Of a DNA stretch of 64,000 bases, positions 17,670 to 28,656 are shown one piece after another (position 1 is the stretch's first letter; each line of letters begins with the position of its first letter). The position numbers were made by a program, and so were the translations under genes. The DNA comes from Lachnospiraceae bacterium oral taxon 500 (GTDB lineage Bacteria > Bacillota > Clostridia > Lachnospirales > Vallitaleaceae). Under the pieces are notes generated by a model. The model saw only the letters and a list, made by a program, of their open reading frames with translations. It had not been told where the DNA came from and did not search any database. The stretch spans positions 499,001-563,000 of the forward strand of contig CP027241.1 in assembly GCA_002999035.1 (NCBI GenBank). Reading direction: 5' to 3'.

Positions 17670-17741
17670 GTGCCAAACATTTCTTTGCCGGCAAAACTTC
17701 AAGGAAAATCGACCTTAAGGAGTTTTTATGATCCAAATTGA
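17670..17741 (+). CDS. Possible 23-aa leader peptide overlapping the CARF nuclease start
   Basis: A GTG-initiated frame VPNISLPAKLQGKSTLRSFY... ends at TGA 17739-17741, 11 bases inside the nuclease gene in another frame. AAGGAG at 17658-17663 lies 6 nt before the GTG. The stop just past the downstream ATG would place terminating ribosomes on the nuclease start, a coupling arrangement. The evidence is only the site and the overlap; it may be chance. Confidence 0.35.
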   Translation: MPNISLPAKLQGKSTLRSFYDPN

Positions 17742-18921
17742 TTTTTACAGTCAGGATATGATCAGTCTGCTGACGCCGATTTATTCCCTGCGGCCGAAGA
17801 CGGTTTATTTGTTAATGGATCCGACCGAAGCATCCGCTCCCGGCATCGCATCAATCAGAGAAACCATCCTGTCCTGGGGTTTTGTCCGCCGGCTGTATTT
17901 TCAACCGGTTAATCGGCATGATATTCATGCTATTCTCCATTGCCTGCAAGAAATCATCACCGCCAATTCCGGTCAAATTTATCTTGACCTGACCGGCGGC
18001 GGGGAGCTGTTTGCGGCTGCCGGCTATCATGTTTGTCAAGAGACTGCCGTTACACCGGTTTATATGGATTTGGACAGAGAAATCATTTATCAGATCGACA
18101 GCGGTGCCGTCGTTGCCAAAGTCCGCCATATCGGTGCGGGCGATTTTATCTCGGCTATCGGTGCCAAACGCCTGGAAGATTCACACTTTCTGCCGGCCAA
18201 AGCGGATTATCCTTCTATTTTGGCCATGGCAGAAGCTATCTTTACTCATTTGCCGGAGTGGCACGCCCTGCACACTTACATTTCCGACCGGCTCAAGTTC
18301 ACCAAGGGCAAGCACAGCGATGCCGCGCCGGAACAGGAAAAGCGAATCAGCATCGCCATTCCGCCTTATATCCGACATCACGGCATTTCCTATCCAACCG
18401 GCTTCTTAGTCCGCCGTTTTGTCCGGCACGGCTTTTTAACGGTCAAAGAAAATCGCCGCTATCGCTTTGCCTCCGCCGAAGCCATGCAGTACCTCCGCAC
18501 TTTCGGCATTTGGCTGGAACTTTATGTTTATATCAAAGCTCAGGCCTTTTTTGACGAAGCCGCTCTGGGTGTCGTGATTGACTGGGAAAAGGGCGATGAT
18601 CTCGACACAAAAGACAATGAAATTGATGTCTTAGTCATGTATCATTCCACACCGGTTTTTATTTCCTGTAAGATGCGGGAAATAAAAGCCGGCGATATTT
18701 ATGAGGTCGGCTATCTGGCTGCCCGCTTAGGCGGCAGTCAGGCCAAAAGCATCATTGCCACTACCGCCCCCGTCCGGGAGGAAAGCGCTAATCCAACCGG
18801 TATTTTCAAACGTCTGGAAAAAATGAAAATCGGCTTGATTGAAACCGGCGATTTTACCCGGCTGCCAGTCAAAGAAGTGTTTGCCCGCGCTCTAAAAATG
18901 ACTGACTCAACTTTCCCATAG
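17728..18921 (+). CDS. Orphan CARF-domain nuclease, DUF1887 (Card1/Can2-like)
   Basis: A 397-aa protein. The N-terminal part (about 1-150) has the CARF-like Rossmann layout with LDLTGGG at residues 86-92 where cyclic-oligoadenylate sensors carry their ligand-binding loop. A middle region (about 160-250) resembles a winged helix. The C-terminal nuclease (about 255-390) shows Glu264 in GIWLELYVY, Asp300 in DNEIDV and Lys315 in FISCK, the PD-(D/E)XK core; the second acid of the motif is Ser313 here. In type III CRISPR systems such proteins are switched on by cyclic oligoadenylate to cut DNA or RNA. No cas gene or array is near. AAGGAG is 5 nt before the ATG. Its last residues, DSTFP, are encoded by an inserted repeat element. 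Confidence 0.87.
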   Translation: MIQIDFYSQDMISLLTPIYSLRPKTVYLLMDPTEASAPGIASIRETILSWGFVRRLYFQPVNRHDIHAILHCLQEIITANSGQIYLDLTGGGELFAAAGYHVCQETAVTPVYMDLDREIIYQIDSGAVVAKVRHIGAGDFISAIGAKRLEDSHFLPAKADYPSILAMAEAIFTHLPEWHALHTYISDRLKFTKGKHSDAAPEQEKRISIAIPPYIRHHGISYPTGFLVRRFVRHGFLTVKENRRYRFASAEAMQYLRTFGIWLELYVYIKAQAFFDEAALGVVIDWEKGDDLDTKDNEIDVLVMYHSTPVFISCKMREIKAGDIYEVGYLAARLGGSQAKSIIATTAPVREESANPTGIFKRLEKMKIGLIETGDFTRLPVKEVFARALKMTDSTFP

Positions 18922-21396: not shown

Positions 21397-23457
21397 ATGA
21401 GTAATCAAAACGCATGGCGCGGCTTTCAAGGCGGAGCCTGGAAGAAAAATATTGATGTTCGCGACTTTATTGTTCACAATTACACACTTTACACCGGTGA
21501 CGATGCTTTCTTAGCCGGACCGACCGATGCCACCAAAAAGCTGTGGGCCGAAATTATGGAATTAACCAAAAAGGAAAAAGAAGCCGGCGGCACCTTGGAT
21601 ATGGATACCTCAGTTGTTTCTTCCATCGTTTCGCACGGCCCGGGTTATCTGGATAAGGACTTGGAAAAGATTGTCGGCTTCCAGACCGATAAGCCTTTCA
21701 AACGGTCACTGCAGCCTTACGGCGGTATCCGCATGGCCGAAAATGCCTGCGAAGCCTATGGCTACAAGGTTGACGACGAAGTAGTCAAAATCTTCACCGA
21801 TTACCGCAAGACCCATAATCAGGGCGTATTTGACGCTTATACCCCGGAAATGAGAATGGCTCGTAAGACCGGTATTATCACCGGACTTCCCGATGCTTAC
21901 GGCCGCGGCCGGATTATCGGCGATTACCGCCGGGTGGCCTTATACGGTATCGACCGGTTGGTAGCCGATAAGAAAGCACAGTTTGCCAGCACTGAAGGCA
22001 CAATGGAGCCGGAACGGATCCAGTTAAGAGAAGAAATCTCCGAACAGATTCGGGCTTTGGGCGAATTGAAGACCTTGGGTGAGATTTACGGCTTTGATAT
22101 TTCCCAGCCGGCAAGCACCGCCCAGGAAGCAATTCAATGGCTGTATCTTGGCTATCTGGCTGCTGTTAAAGAACAAAACGGCGCTGCCATGAGCTTGGGC
22201 CGGACCTCTACTTTCCTTGATATTTATATTCAAAGAGATTTGGAAGAAGGCACATTGACCGAAGAGCAGGCGCAGGAATTGATTGACCACTTCATTATGA
22301 AGCTGCGTTTAATCAAGTTTGCCCGGACTCCGGAATACAACGAACTGTTCTCCGGCGACCCGACTTGGGTAACCGAATCCATTGCCGGTATCGGCTTAGA
22401 CGGCCGGCCGATGGTCACGAAGAACTCCTTCCGTTACCTGCACACCCTGGTTAATTTAGGACCTGCACCGGAACCGAATATGACCGTCCTGTGGTCAACC
22501 AAGCTCCCGGAAAACTTCAAGCGTTTCTGCGCGAAGATGTCGATTGAAACTTCTTCCCTGCAATATGAAAATGACGACTTGATGCGGCCGGTTCACGGTG
22601 ATGACTACGCCATTGCCTGCTGCGTATCCTCGATGCGCTTGGGTAAGGAAATGCAGTTCTTCGGTGCCAGAGCTAATCTGGCAAAATGTCTGCTGTATGC
22701 CATCAACGGCGGTGTCGATGAAAAAACCAAGACACAGGTTGGTCCGAAATATCGGCCGGTTGAAGGCGATGTCCTTAACTTTGACGATGTCATGGCTAAG
22801 TACGATGATATGATGGAATGGCTGGCAGAACTTTATGTCAATACCTTAAACATCATTCACTACATGCATGATAAATATTGCTACGAAAGAATCCAAATGG
22901 CGCTGCATGACCGCGATGTCAAACGTTACTTTGCAACCGGTATTGCCGGACTCTCCGTTGTAGCCGATTCTTTAAGCGCTATCAAATATGCAACGGTTAA
23001 GCCGATTCGCGATGAGAACGGCGTAGTGGTAGACTTTGAGACCACCGGCGATTTCCCGAAATACGGCAACAATGATGACCGGGTTGATGAATTGGCTGTT
23101 AATTTGGTTCATACCTTTATGGAAAAGATCCGGAAACATTACACCTACCGCCACGGCGTACCGACCATGTCAATCCTGACGATCACCTCCAATGTGGTCT
23201 ATGGTAAAAAGACCGGAAATACACCGGACGGACGGCGTTTGGGCGAGCCTTTGGCTCCGGGTGCCAACCCGATGCACCGCCGCGATACGCACGGCGCTTT
23301 GGCTTCGCTGGCCTCGGTTGCTAAGCTGCCGTTTAACGATTCGCAGGATGGCATCAGCAATACTTTCTCCATCATTCCCAACGCTTTAGGTAAAGGCGAG
23401 CGGGTCTTTATGGGCGAGCTGGACTTTGATAAATTGCTGGAAGAAGCAGGAGAATAA
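21397..23457 (+). CDS. pflB: Pyruvate formate-lyase core lacking the glycyl-radical domain
   Basis: A 686-aa polypeptide matching pyruvate formate-lyase from the N-terminus through the ten-stranded barrel. The catalytic cysteine pair is Cys408-Cys409 in IACCVSSM. It follows normal PFL as far as [17 protein letters not shown], then ends with an unrelated 18-residue tail and a stop, about 75 residues short of the family and without the RVSGYAV radical site. That domain is encoded separately at 23934-24179. The enzyme converts pyruvate and CoA to acetyl-CoA and formate in anaerobic fermentation. GGAGG lies 7 nt before the ATG. The clean stop followed by a coupled frame argues against a sequencing error. 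It should need the 81-aa protein in trans. Confidence 0.93.
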
Positions 23458-23459
23458 TT

Positions 23460-23678
23460 ATGGCAGATACTAATAAAGTCGATGATTTAGTGGCCTTGCT
23501 GGATCAGTTTATGACCGGCGGCGGCGGCCATCTGAATGTCCGGACGGAAAGCGGCGCTTCCGCCGATGACACTCCGGCAGTCAGTACCAGTCGGAGCAAC
23601 GACTGTCAGCCCAATATGGCCTGCAGCGTTCCGACTCTGCACCAGGGCATTGACGATGAGGATGAGCCGACCATCTGA
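23460..23678 (+). CDS. 72-aa protein with partial copy of the PFL glycyl-radical domain
   Basis: Starts 2 nt after the PFL core stop with AGGAG 8-9 nt upstream, so it is translationally coupled. Residues 7-27 (DDLVALLDQFMTGGGGHLNV) align with residues 9-29 of the 81-aa radical-domain protein ([20 protein letters not shown]), the linker that normally joins PFL core to radical domain. It then diverges into a Ser/Asp-rich tail with two Cys (DCQPNMAC) and an acidic end, and has no RVSGYAV. It may be a decayed first copy of the radical domain, or a small partner that occupies the same surface of the core. Not a recognised family. Confidence 0.6.
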   Translation: MADTNKVDDLVALLDQFMTGGGGHLNVRTESGASADDTPAVSTSRSNDCQPNMACSVPTLHQGIDDEDEPTI

Positions 23679-23708
23679 CAGTAGGGCAAATGCCAAAATA
23701 GAACAATA

Positions 23709-23845
23709 ACTCAACTTTCTCATGTTCGTCAGAACCGTCTTTTTTAGGTAGGTCGCCCACCCGGGCAGAAAGCGGAGCTTTCGACCAGGGTAGGTCGCCC
23801 ACCCGGGCAGAAGTGCGAAGCACTTCGAGCAGGGGAAAGTTGAGT
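23709..23845. repeat. Intergenic element copy E3 (137 bp)
   Basis: ACTCAACTTTCTCAT at the left and GGGGAAAGTTGAGT at the right, with two internal modules of the form AGGTCGCCCACCCGGGCAG followed by GCGGAGCTTTCGACCAGGG or GTGCGAAGCACTTCGAGCAGGG. It separates the 72-codon gene from the radical-domain gene inside the pfl operon and could reduce read-through between them. Confidence 0.85.
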
Positions 23846-23933
23846 CAATGATCCACACTCAGCCTGTCAAGCCAAAACAGGCTGAATAAATAAAGATACT
23901 CTCACTGACCAATATAAATAAGGAGATTTTATT

Positions 23934-24179
23934 ATGAACGAACAAAAGAATCAACAAATAGATAACTTAGTTTCCATGCTGGACGGCTATGCCGAAAAGG
24001 GCGGCCATCACTTAAATGTCAATGTTTTCAGCAAAGAAACCCTGCTGGACGCACAGGCACATCCGGAATTATATCCGCAGCTGACCGTTCGTGTTTCCGG
24101 CTATGCCGTAAACTTTGTTAAGTTGACCAAAGAACAGCAAGATGACGTTATTTCCCGGACTTTCCACGACGGAATGTAA
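23934..24179 (+). CDS. Stand-alone PFL glycyl-radical domain protein
   Basis: An 81-aa protein that corresponds to the C-terminal domain of pyruvate formate-lyase from the linker to the natural C-terminus. It carries [23 protein letters not shown] with radical-bearing Gly56, and ends RTFHDGM like full-length PFLs. AAGGAG is about 9 nt before its own ATG, so it is made as a separate chain. It resembles YfiD/GrcA in principle, the spare part that rescues oxygen-cleaved PFL in E. coli, but here no intact PFL domain exists for it to replace, so it must be an obligatory subunit. The activase is encoded next. Confidence 0.93.
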
Positions 24180-24234
24180 GACAGCAAGCTAAAAATTAGC
24201 ACAAATATTGTTTCAAGGGGTATGCCCCTACCGA

Positions 24235-24261
24235 GAAAATACCCCGACTGGGGTATTTTTC
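24235..24261 (+). terminator. Hairpin terminator between radical-domain gene and activase
   Basis: AAAATACCCC, loop GACT, GGGGTATTTT followed by TTCTATTCCCTTTTT. A smaller AGGGG/CCCCT hairpin precedes it at 24216-24229. Partial termination here would make more structural protein than catalytic activase from one operon. Confidence 0.75.
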
Positions 24262-24347
24262 TATTCCCTTTTTATTCATGGCCTATCTTCCGGCAAAAAG
24301 AAAAAGCTAAAATACAAGGGATTTACTTTGAGAGAGAGGAAATTAAA

Positions 24348-25115
24348 ATGAAAGGCTATGTTCATTCTATCGAAACTTTCGGTACCGTTGACGGCCCCGG
24401 GATTCGCTATGTCGTTTTTATGCAGGGTTGTCCGATGCGCTGTTTATATTGTCATAATCCCGATACCTGGGCCCTTAAAACCGGACCGGAAAAGACGGTG
24501 ACAGAAATCCTGACCGATTACGAAGCCTACCGTCCTTTTCTCAAAAATGGCGGTCTGACCGTTACCGGCGGGGAACCTTTAATGCAGCTTCCATTTATCA
24601 CTGATCTTTTTCAGCGGGCCAAGCAGCGGAATATTCATACCTGTCTGGATACTTCGGGTATCACCTTCCGGCGTACTCCCGACTATCTGCCGAAGATTGA
24701 CGCATTGCTGGCCAATGTCGATCTGGTTTTGCTGGACATCAAGCATATCGATCCGGACCGCCATAAAGTTCTGACCTCGATGCCGAATGAGCCGATTCTG
24801 GATTTTGCCCGTTATTTAAAGGAAAAGAAAATTCCCGTCTGGATTCGGCATGTCGTCATTCCGATGGTAACCGACAAGCCGGAGTATCTGGAACGGCTCG
24901 GCTATTTTCTGGGTGAACTGGACAATATCAAGGCACTGGACGTCCTGCCCTATCATACTATGGGAAAAGATAAATACCGGCAGCTGAATATGATGTATCC
25001 TTTAGACGGTGTTCCGCCTATGTCAACCAAAGGTGCGGTCGAGGCCAAACAAATCATTTTAAACGGTATTAAAAAACGGCTGCTTGAGCGCAAGCACGAA
25101 CATGAGCTGGCGTAA
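24348..25115 (+). CDS. pflA: Pyruvate formate-lyase activating enzyme (radical SAM)
   Basis: A 255-aa radical-SAM enzyme that abstracts hydrogen from the glycyl residue of PFL. The 4Fe-4S ligands are Cys28, Cys32 and Cys35 in GCPMRCLYCHNP; the SAM-binding TVTGGEP and the DTSG strand follow. Full family length. I start it at 24348, where AGAGAGG lies 8 nt upstream and the sequence MKGYVHSIETFGTVDGPG is the canonical opening; an in-frame extension back to 24222 is not conserved and would run through the terminator. Its substrate here is presumably Gly56 of the separate 81-aa protein docked on the core. Confidence 0.95.
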   Translation: MKGYVHSIETFGTVDGPGIRYVVFMQGCPMRCLYCHNPDTWALKTGPEKTVTEILTDYEAYRPFLKNGGLTVTGGEPLMQLPFITDLFQRAKQRNIHTCLDTSGITFRRTPDYLPKIDALLANVDLVLLDIKHIDPDRHKVLTSMPNEPILDFARYLKEKKIPVWIRHVVIPMVTDKPEYLERLGYFLGELDNIKALDVLPYHTMGKDKYRQLNMMYPLDGVPPMSTKGAVEAKQIILNGIKKRLLERKHEHELA

Positions 25116-25785: not shown

Positions 25786-28656
25786 TTAATTCTGAGGCTT
25801 CTGCTCACCCCATGCGTTTGCAGTCGGATAACCGCCGTCCGGATTCTGCGGATTGGGATTTTGTCCCGGATAGCCGCTAAATCCTTGATTCGGCTGATTA
25901 TAGGCCGGATAGCCCTGACCGTAGCCCGGCTGCTGATAGCCTTGATAGCCTTGACCATATCCCTGATTATTATTGGAATAAGGCTGACCATAACCCGGCA
26001 TCGGCTGCGCCTGACCAAAATCCTGCCCATAAGGTGCGGCCGAAGTCTGCGGATACGGCTGATTTTGAAGCGGAGTATCTGTCGGTGCCGCATTCCATCC
26101 TCCCGAGGCATTGCCGGAATAACCCGTATTATCCGGCCACGCCGGTGTCTGGCTATAACCCATATAGCCGCCGGTACTGGCAGCGGTTTCGTGGCTTTCG
26201 GCTTGAGCCGCTGTATTTTCGCTTACCGGCTGCTCAATATTCTTTTCAGCTATTCCGGCTGCTTCAGCCTCATTTCCGTCCATTTTTTCCGTACTGGTAT
26301 CTAAGCTATCTACCTGCACCGGCCTTTCAACACCATCCGAAATACCGGTATTATCCATCGGAGCCGGTGCTCCGCCAAAGCCTACACCGTTATCCATCGG
26401 AGCCGGTGCTCCGCCAAAGCCTGCTCCGTTATCCATCGGAGCCGGTGCTCCGCCAAAGCCTGCGCCGTTATCCATCGGAGCCGGTGCTCCGCCAAAGCCT
26501 GCTCCATTATCCATCGGAGCCGGTGCTCCGCCAAAGCCTGCTCCATTATCCATCGGAGCTGGTGCTCCGCCAAAGCCTGCTCCATTATTCATTGAAGCCG
26601 GCGCTCCGATATAACCGGTATTGCCGGCCGGCGCCGAATAGTTGTTATTAGCCGGACCTGCCGGATAACCGCCGGGCTGCATCCCCGGATAACCGGCCGG
26701 ACGCGGACCAGTCGGCTGAGCCGGTGCTTTCTTTTTCCGGCCAGCTACAAGCGCAATCACAATCAACAGTACCAAAAGAATAACTACTCCGGCGACAACG
26801 ATAATCAGCATATTATTGCCCGTTGACTTCACCGGCTTTTTACCATCTTTTTGATCATTTTTTTCGTCTTTGGCCGACGTGTCCTTTTTATCCGGCTTGT
26901 TCTCCGAACTGCCCTCGTTTTTCATTACCGGAACTACTTTCGTTTTCAACTGGCTGAGAAATTCCTCGGCCGTAGCATCCGCCGAATTGGCTAAAAAGAA
27001 ATCCATAATCTCCGGCTTCATTTTATCAAAAACCGCTGCTGCCACTTCCTTTTGTCCGAAATACATCAAATCCAGCTCTTCCGTCTCGGACTGGTACAGG
27101 AAGACAACCATGTTATCCGCCAACCCTGCCTTTTTCATCAGGTCTTTATACCATTTCAAATATGCCTTACCGTCGGCATAAGCTGATACATCGTTTTTCG
27201 AGATAAGAACTGGCGTCAGACCCGCTTTCTCCAGTTCTTGTATCTGCTTTGGCAGCTTATCACTGATAAAAGCATAGGTTGTGTCCAAAATATTTGGCTC
27301 GGTCGTTTCCCTTTGCCGTAAATAGGTCAAAAGTTCCAGCATCCCGGCCTGATAATCAAAGATTGCGTCGGCCTCATATCCGTCCCGCTCTAACTCCTTT
27401 TCCAAGGCCTTCTGCACCGGCTCAATCACCTTGGCGTTCTTTTTCCAAAAACTCTCGGTACTGCCCGCGGCATACCAGACCACCTTCTGGGTCCGGACAT
27501 CAAACAAAGTCAGCATTCCATCTTCGACATCATGATATTCGAACTCATTTTGCGCCATTTCTTTCAAATCGGCTTCTTTTAAATCAGCTTCTCCATCCGG
27601 CAGGATAATAGTCTGATACAACTTTTCCGAGAATTGATCCATGTAATGGAAACTTAGGGCTTCTAAATGACCCGCTTGTTCGTCTTTTAAGATCTCCCAC
27701 CTATCATTGATAAACATCGGCTGTTCTGTTCGATCTATAGCCCCTTCCGCCAGCGGAATGTCCGCCTCCGGATCAATAAAGCGCTCAATTCGGTAAACCG
27801 CTGCCAAAACATCATGTTCTAGGCTTAAAATCCCCAGCAGTTCATTTGCCAGATTGTCCATATCAGCCTGCGGATAATCCTTATAGGCTTCTCCGTAAAA
27901 ATTAACCGCCAACTGGTCCAGGCTCGGGCTGTACAGGACAAAAGTACCCGACTGCTCTTCGCCGATGCCGTATCCCTGCGATAAAAAATAATCATCGGCA
28001 TACTGATTAAACTCAGCAGCATTCAAACTATCATTCAGCAAGATAAGAATATCCTGGTTGGCATATTCCCGCCAGGCAACGATCTCCTTGCTCGCCTCTC
28101 CGACATCTACTATCGAGTCATCGGTTAATTCATTGATAACCGGATAATAATAAATCCTGACCAAATTGATAAACCGGTCGATCAACAGTTCCATGGATGG
28201 ATTTTCCCGATAATACCCTTCCAAAACCTTAACTATATGAGCTGTTTGATAGCTGGTATAATTATACATCTCGCGACCGGTCGGAACCACCGCCGTCGTT
28301 ACCACACCGCCGGAAGACCTGTTGACAAACAAAAATACAGACCCGCTTTCTTCCTCATTAATTGCTCCGTATCCGTTTTTCGCAGTTAAATCGGCAGCCA
28401 TCTGCTCCAACTGTTCCGGCGCAAAAAGTGTTTCCCCAGTTAAAAATACCGTGACAATTTCTGTTTCTTCCTGCATATCGGTCAGCACTGCATCTATCGC
28501 CTGATATTCCTCATCCGTCAAAACATTGGCCGGATCAATAATAAACTTGCTGTCCCTCGCCGCCAGCACCGGTATTTTCACCAGCGAAAGCAGCAGGGCA
28601 AAAGCCAGCACCAGCCCGATACTGCCTTTAAAACTTCTTTGCTTTACTTTTAACAT
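25786..28656 (-). CDS. Large TPM-domain membrane protein with repetitive extracellular or cytoplasmic tail
   Basis: A 956-aa protein: signal segment (about 10-32), a TPM domain opening FIIDPANVLTDEEYQAIDAVL (about 36-165), further regions to about residue 600 that may include diverged TPM copies, a charged Lys/Asp linker, a membrane helix (about 622-648) and a 300-residue low-complexity tail. The tail has about seven copies of GAPAPMDNGAGFG, then Gly/Tyr/Gln/Pro/Asn-rich sequence like the SPFH protein's. It is the third TPM gene in this window. Function unknown; TPM proteins act at membranes with SPFH partners. A good promoter lies at 28770-28797. Confidence 0.8.
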   Translation of the reverse strand: MLKVKQRSFKGSIGLVLAFALLLSLVKIPVLAARDSKFIIDPANVLTDEEYQAIDAVLTDMQEETEIVTVFLTGETLFAPEQLEQMAADLTAKNGYGAINEEESGSVFLFVNRSSGGVVTTAVVPTGREMYNYTSYQTAHIVKVLEGYYRENPSMELLIDRFINLVRIYYYPVINELTDDSIVDVGEASKEIVAWREYANQDILILLNDSLNAAEFNQYADDYFLSQGYGIGEEQSGTFVLYSPSLDQLAVNFYGEAYKDYPQADMDNLANELLGILSLEHDVLAAVYRIERFIDPEADIPLAEGAIDRTEQPMFINDRWEILKDEQAGHLEALSFHYMDQFSEKLYQTIILPDGEADLKEADLKEMAQNEFEYHDVEDGMLTLFDVRTQKVVWYAAGSTESFWKKNAKVIEPVQKALEKELERDGYEADAIFDYQAGMLELLTYLRQRETTEPNILDTTYAFISDKLPKQIQELEKAGLTPVLISKNDVSAYADGKAYLKWYKDLMKKAGLADNMVVFLYQSETEELDLMYFGQKEVAAAVFDKMKPEIMDFFLANSADATAEEFLSQLKTKVVPVMKNEGSSENKPDKKDTSAKDEKNDQKDGKKPVKSTGNNMLIIVVAGVVILLVLLIVIALVAGRKKKAPAQPTGPRPAGYPGMQPGGYPAGPANNNYSAPAGNTGYIGAPASMNNGAGFGGAPAPMDNGAGFGGAPAPMDNGAGFGGAPAPMDNGAGFGGAPAPMDNGAGFGGAPAPMDNGVGFGGAPAPMDNTGISDGVERPVQVDSLDTSTEKMDGNEAEAAGIAEKNIEQPVSENTAAQAESHETAASTGGYMGYSQTPAWPDNTGYSGNASGGWNAAPTDTPLQNQPYPQTSAAPYGQDFGQAQPMPGYGQPYSNNNQGYGQGYQGYQQPGYGQGYPAYNQPNQGFSGYPGQNPNPQNPDGGYPTANAWGEQKPQN
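26351..26610. repeat. 39-bp coding tandem repeat, about seven copies
   Basis: Unit CCGTTATCCATCGGAGCCGG... of 39 bp, nearly identical between copies, encoding 13 residues (GAPAPMDNGAGFG) in the TPM protein tail. The unit is a multiple of three, so expansion or contraction keeps the frame. There are no spacers, so this is not a CRISPR array. Confidence 0.9.

Follow-up and report, generated by a model that had tools for sequence, protein, structure and literature searches.

Pyruvate formate-lyase (PFL) is a main pyruvate route in anaerobes, and oxygen destroys it at its radical glycine. Here we describe a locus at which PFL is encoded in separate pieces. It lies in a 64,000-nucleotide stretch of the genome of Lachnospiraceae bacterium oral taxon 500 (contig CP027241.1, positions 499,001 to 563,000), which we refer to as the window. 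Judged from its sequence and its relatives, the enzyme very probably consists of three separately translated chains, namely a core, a small cysteine-bearing protein that we name MID, and a stand-alone glycyl-radical domain, GrcA3, encoded together with the activating enzyme (Table 1).

Table 1. Features of the split PFL locus, in positions of the window (aa, amino acids; nt, nucleotides; ORF, open reading frame; SAM, S-adenosylmethionine)
Feature	Position	Strand	Remarks
PFL core without glycyl-radical domain, 686 aa	21397..23457	+	catalytic Cys408-Cys409; short acidic tail
MID (name coined here), 72 aa	23460..23678	+	AGGAG at 23448-23452; begins two bases past core stop codon
Insertion between MID and GrcA3 genes	23701..23853		inverted-repeat arms CTCAACTTTCYC and two 24-nt direct repeats; outside conserved operon
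GrcA3, stand-alone glycyl-radical domain, 81 aa	23934..24179	+	RVSGYAV, no Cys; AAGGAG at 23920-23925
PFL-activating enzyme (radical SAM), 255 aa	24348..25115	+	likely start ATG 24348, within longer ORF 24222-25115

Genes of the split locus

An earlier note on this DNA had recognized a core gene that has Cys408-Cys409 but lacks a radical glycine, an independent 81-codon gene carrying RVSGYAV behind its own AAGGAG site, and an activase gene next to it. All three genes were confirmed. The core matches the PFL model TIGR01255 over model positions 1-665 of 744 and passes its cut-off (1135.2 bits against 994.2). Aligned to E. coli PFL, it reaches to about residue 680 before the acidic tail begins, and the two catalytic cysteine columns hold C in every alignment row that covers them. 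Neither a radical glycine nor a same-chain radical domain was found in the window core, the domain being the separate GrcA3 frame. The activase passes the cut-off of TIGR02493 (290.3 bits against 231.75). The two-chain enzyme that the note had built from these genes was not borne out, as a third conserved small gene, MID, had been overlooked.

GrcA3 scores 166.6 bits against the NCBIfam model GrcA3 (NF038360), over the cut-off of 158, and thus the radical chain already has a name at NCBI; that model does not cover MID and does not address the core. Against the YfiD/GrcA model (TIGR04365) GrcA3 reaches 92.9 bits, which fails the cut-off of 170, and the radical half alone aligns. It aligns to E. 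coli PFL residues 683-758. YfiD has 127 residues, whereas the 81 residues of GrcA3 lack the first 60 or so of YfiD and keep the helix of PFL residues 683-693, which is absent from YfiD. Because this helix is retained, GrcA3 looks less like a recruited YfiD than like the detached C-terminus of PFL itself. With this qualification, the proposal of the note that a spare part had become the only part fits the locus. Cheap renewal of a radical subunit damaged by oxygen, which the note also proposed, is a possible benefit of the split. Some genomes hold an additional stand-alone GrcA3 gene apart from the split PFL operon (loci L085 and L086, and places in G199, G213, G183 and G233), and such a second copy is a possible true spare part.

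MID combines two halves. Its N-terminal part is a copy of the helix and strand of the radical domain, KVDDLVALLDQFMTGGGGHLNV, with the radical glycine missing, and this resemblance is limited to the first 30 or so residues. Its C-terminal part carries a cysteine motif, CQPNMACSVPTLHQGIDD in the window, of the general form C-x5/6-C-x-VPTL. Pfam gave nothing for the window MID at E values as high as 10, and MID fails the GrcA3 model NF038360 (19.7 bits over 25 residues).

The split enzyme looks like the only PFL of its genome, a single contig of 3,201,383 bases that is 99.98% complete. The note had asked for a search for another full-length PFL, and searches with PF01228 and the PFL model saw no second PFL, one 751-aa PF01228 frame being left untyped. 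PF01228 matches at five places, of which two are this locus, two are PFL-like enzymes and one is the untyped frame. The two PFL-like enzymes (773 and 901 aa) pass the cut-off of TIGR01774 (PFL2/glycerol-dehydratase) and reach merely 133-160 bits with the PFL model. At 1150985-1160705 of genome G000 (L088), two PFL2/glycerol-dehydratase-type glycyl radical enzymes lie with one activase and an ORF similar to fructose-6-phosphate aldolase that scores below the cut-off for that family.

The same order of genes recurs widely. In a set of named genomes, a pattern search gave 594 hits, at least 343 of which were confirmed as relatives, and the best 80 were kept for locus reading. The order core, MID, glycyl-radical domain was found at 75 of these best 80 loci, with the activase also in view at 65 of the 75. 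Organisms with MID include Hungatella hathewayi DSM 13479, Lacrimispora, Mobilisporobacter and [Clostridium] fimetarium. MID occupies the same place in the same-genus genome G001 and in G032 of another family. In one genus (three genomes) it is unlinked and nonetheless retained, the locus there reading core, activase, GrcA3. At two loci of the Lacrimispora group (L104, L107) the core, MID and GrcA3 genes share one reading frame with single stop codons between them, an arrangement with a chance of one in nine. The recurrence at the 75 loci and in G001 supports the view of the note that the split evolved and is neither decay nor a sequencing error. Under the opposite explanation the core would be truncated, MID would be debris and GrcA3 would be a normal spare for another PFL. 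At first sight MID does resemble a broken radical domain; however, frame, motif and gene order are conserved over many genera and no other PFL was seen in the window genome (with the 751-aa frame untyped), and we find this explanation hardly credible.

MID and cysteine tails across split genomes

The distribution of MID was followed in a sample of 392 genomes from the order, 279 of which have a PFL-type match. A three-row MID profile matched 65 of the 392. Six of the 65 match through a radical domain alone, so that 59 genomes carry MID; G206, the one genome matched despite having no split core, likewise owes its match to its own radical domain. Since MID is present in 59 order genomes and in at least 343 confirmed relatives from named genomes, it is neither chance nor debris, and on these comparisons it is a real conserved gene.

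Cysteine counts from MIDs selected by their motif were circular and were discarded. They were replaced by a profile of the MID N-terminal part alone, so that the cysteines did not drive selection. This profile recovered 59 of 60 MIDs, the missing one, that of G061, being seen by eye. All 59 have at least two cysteines behind the matched part and 57 carry C..[AP]C-x-[VIS]P; the two exceptions are G117, which reads ACKTPTL, and G313, in which the gene ends with GCTDCAK. Across 27 MIDs sampled by similarity, the invariant residues are M1, D8, G23, H24, N26, C49, A54, C55, V57, P58, T59 and L60. The radical loop R[VI]SGYA occurs in none of 81 distinct MIDs selected by regular expression. The N-terminal profile also matched 57 GrcA3 ORFs, and a profile of the 27 MIDs matched the starts of GrcA3 in many genomes at E values of 1e-7 to 1e-4; because of these matches we take MID to be related to the start of the radical domain. 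No family covering MID was found in Pfam or NCBIfam, with which all 27 were searched, and no MID-like chain was found in the PDB. Thus MID is not described in the libraries searched. A second MID-GrcA3-activase cassette, with a divergent MID (PCSSPTL), lies on contig 97 of G124 (L087).

At least 79 genomes of the order have a split core. This count is a lower bound, as the reach of the core was read in 65 + 78 genomes and the remainder showed a full-length row, where a second, weaker copy would escape notice; cores ending at contig edges (G277, G260) were left unjudged. The genomes are samples, and related ones are not independent. MID is present in 59 of the 79, linked to the core in 56 and unlinked in 3. 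The other 20 split genomes lack MID, and in all but one of them the tail of the core itself bears a cysteine motif, for example ECGNQACNIPNIMESID, DCACCEPN or ECCSGGACDGATLFEGLD; profile search found no separate MID in any of these 19. A full-length PFL stands alongside the split one in two of the 79 (G347, G371). Outside the order, 58 genomes of the class sample were checked. They include 14 split ones, of which 3 have MID (G443, G496, G537), 9 have a cysteine tail and 2 have neither, which brings the total to 93 split genomes with 62 MIDs, 28 cysteine tails and 3 with neither. A cysteine element thus usually accompanies the split.

Several tails from outside the order (G683, G495, G469, G667 and G588) bear the motif of MID itself. 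Tail sequences such as CSNGACSTPTLFEGLD, CDNGACSSPTLFEGLD and CQGGACSTPTLHKGID compare with CxxxMACSVPTLFEGMD in MIDs. Since the MID motif recurs nearly letter for letter on some core tails, it probably acts at the C-terminus of the core.

Two PDB entries entitled 'Formate acetyltransferase', 38LA and 38LB, are likewise PFL cores without a radical domain and take tree positions within the split group or close to it. The 38LA chain as deposited, whether this is the native end or that of a construct, ends after LGKE without a tail, and the 38LB chain as deposited, with the same reservation, runs about 40 residues further and includes ECDMCEMKELD. No chain of 38LA or 38LB is among the 34 PDB matches to GrcA3. 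These depositions indicate that another group has worked on split PFLs. We found no published paper on a split PFL, GrcA3 or MID in the open-licence literature, subscription papers and preprints being outside that scope.

Possible docking and thiol roles, and rival readings

The closest known system is PflB with YfiD/GrcA of E. coli, which shares with the window locus the core fold, the cysteine pair, the RVSGYAV loop and the activase. According to PMC8683613, YfiD too is a radical-domain protein of its own, which makes up for the missing radical end of a PFL. The two systems differ in that YfiD repairs a full-length enzyme cut by oxygen, whereas the window enzyme is encoded already cut, and in the presence of MID.

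By established PFL biochemistry, the activase would place the radical on GrcA3. GrcA3 would dock on the core in the way that YfiD binds oxygen-cleaved PFL in E. coli, and by analogy the pair would convert pyruvate and coenzyme A to acetyl-CoA and formate. Comparison suggests that the first half of MID is a docking segment, because it is absent in relatives that carry the motif directly on the core C-terminus. MID may thereby carry a dithiol into the spot vacated by the radical domain. There it could play the part of E. coli residues 696-733, marking the empty core and holding it ready for GrcA3. Whenever GrcA3 is absent or has been destroyed by oxygen, the thiols of MID could guard or reset the exposed catalytic cysteines. 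We assign a probability of roughly 45% to this reading as a whole, a three-chain PFL with a docking MID that holds the empty core and guards it with its dithiol. Docking of MID on the core seems more likely than not, while guarding of the catalytic cysteines by its thiols is put forward tentatively. The most likely role of MID, as far as comparison suggests, is in assembly or oxygen protection.

The E. coli stub 696-733 bears on docking. The split cores lack this stretch, of which MID supplies a partial copy, and GrcA3 lacks the first ~60 residues of YfiD. PMC8683613 reports that the stub is required for YfiD binding. Truncated PFL (tPFL, residues 1-695) showed no binding by isothermal titration calorimetry and 32-fold less radical. 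The same paper describes the stub as needed for binding and not for turnover, which favours an alternative explanation in which MID is purely an assembly or recognition piece that replaces the stub in trans, its cysteines merely stabilizing the MID fold. Through its homology with GrcA3, MID covers E. coli region 682-709, as this explanation would have it. However, 28 of the 93 split genomes hold the cysteine motif alone on the core tail with the radical-domain-like part gone, so that the cysteine part and not the stub part is what persists, and we regard a pure assembly role as unlikely.

The cysteines might instead bind a metal ion or an iron-sulfur (Fe-S) cluster, perhaps together with Cys118 of the core. 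Such sites occur in the small subunits of certain glycyl radical enzymes, 4-hydroxyphenylacetate decarboxylase (HPAD, with HpdC) and benzylsuccinate synthase. These systems likewise place a small cysteine-bearing protein beside the enzyme; unlike in the window system, the large chain carries their radical glycine. MIDs have two to three closely spaced cysteines, and Cys118 goes with the cysteine element, being found in 81 of 82 cores with the element and none of 3 without. Against a metal site, the cysteines are usually only two or three and loosely spaced, and the 27 MIDs gave no Fe-S or zinc family match worth noting, nor one to a small-subunit family of glycyl radical enzymes, in Pfam or NCBIfam, libraries whose coverage of all small-subunit families is unchecked. 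The link to Cys118 is weak against its control, in which 0.5 positions of this kind were expected and 2 were seen. For this reason, and because E. coli full-length PFL also has Cys118, the pairing is a hint only. We consider metal binding improbable. Cys431 marks the whole split group including members without the element, occurs in 10 of 39 other full-length PFLs and is not linked to MID.

MID might also act as a deactivase or radical sink, its thiols donating a hydrogen atom to the GrcA3 glycyl radical and leaving a safe resting state under oxygen. The thiols would lie near the radical loop if MID occupies the site of the radical domain, and the cysteine element is lost in both enzymes that appear to have re-fused (see below). 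However, intact PFLs do without such an element, and MID and GrcA3 cannot share one groove at the same time unless they sit on different protomers of the dimer. This role strikes us as very improbable.

Several observations weigh against a docked, guarding MID. In profile searches just the first 33 or so MID positions match the radical domain, and the placing of the MID motif opposite RVSGYA comes from one six-row alignment. A two-part enzyme can work, as tPFL with truncated YfiD was still activated somewhat and was then fully active in the work of PMC8683613. Nor is the cysteine element strictly needed, since G190 in the order, and G576 and G540 (an incomplete genome) outside it, have split cores without MID or cysteine tail, and 38LA ends after LGKE. 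Motif spacing is not constant (C-x5/6-C, C-x2-C-x6-C, C-x-CC, CC), a possible sign of loose constraint. Finally, Cys118 is also present in 9 of 39 other full-length PFLs, that of E. coli among them.

History and meaning of the split

Core trees, which were quick, rely on support from the Shimodaira-Hasegawa-like approximate likelihood ratio test (SH-aLRT) only and include G576 as a long branch, set the split cores, together with those of two full-length enzymes (G386, G325), apart by a branch with support 100. Both full-length enzymes sit inside the split group. Their radical domains reach best identities of 94 and 85% to GrcA3, compared with 79 and 74% to other full-length PFLs, and neither enzyme has a cysteine element. 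The approximately unbiased (AU) test weakly rejects the split cores as a clade without G386 and G325 (p 0.0355), and on this basis re-fusion is favoured, not proven. The trees fit one split and one later re-fusion, represented by two genomes, in which the cysteine element was lost. Once added, 38LA and G576, both element-less, fall between the full-length PFLs and the remaining split group. This fits a sequence of events in which a two-part enzyme arose and gained the cysteine element, MID and tail then interchanged, and one re-fusion followed. Among the 22 genomes of the family of the window organism, the window genome and G001 have the split enzyme, 18 of the other 20 have a full-length PFL and 2 have no PFL match; transfer between lineages is possible.

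In the window, a structured repeat insertion lies in the gap (23679-23933) that separates the MID gene from that of GrcA3; the gap in G001 is only about 40 bases long. The insertion has a fold z-score of -5.9, its repeat core occurs in 23 copies in the window genome, and the window contains 10 occurrences of its arm motif where 0.6 would be expected. It looks like a small non-autonomous mobile element. The arm motif also lies on the downstream flank of ORF 17728-18921, which marginally matches a Card1-like endonuclease domain. Further along, on the minus strand at 25786-28656, is a gene for a TPM-domain protein whose C-terminal half carries the tandem repeat GAPAPMDNGAGFG.

A group of Clostridia that includes gut bacteria (Hungatella hathewayi, Lacrimispora) has PFL encoded as separate chains. 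Surveys that recognize PFL only when its chain contains the radical glycine, or that count PFL by its core alone, misjudge such genomes. The cysteine element is nearly always found with the split, takes two forms and is gone from both re-fused enzymes, which points to a function that can be tested in the laboratory. A further, rather doubtful idea is that the parts are exchangeable, a single groove of the core being filled either by the radical domain in the working state or by the dithiol protein or tail in a guarded, resting or reset state. If this were true, the split would let the cell switch or repair the enzyme around oxygen rather than discard it.

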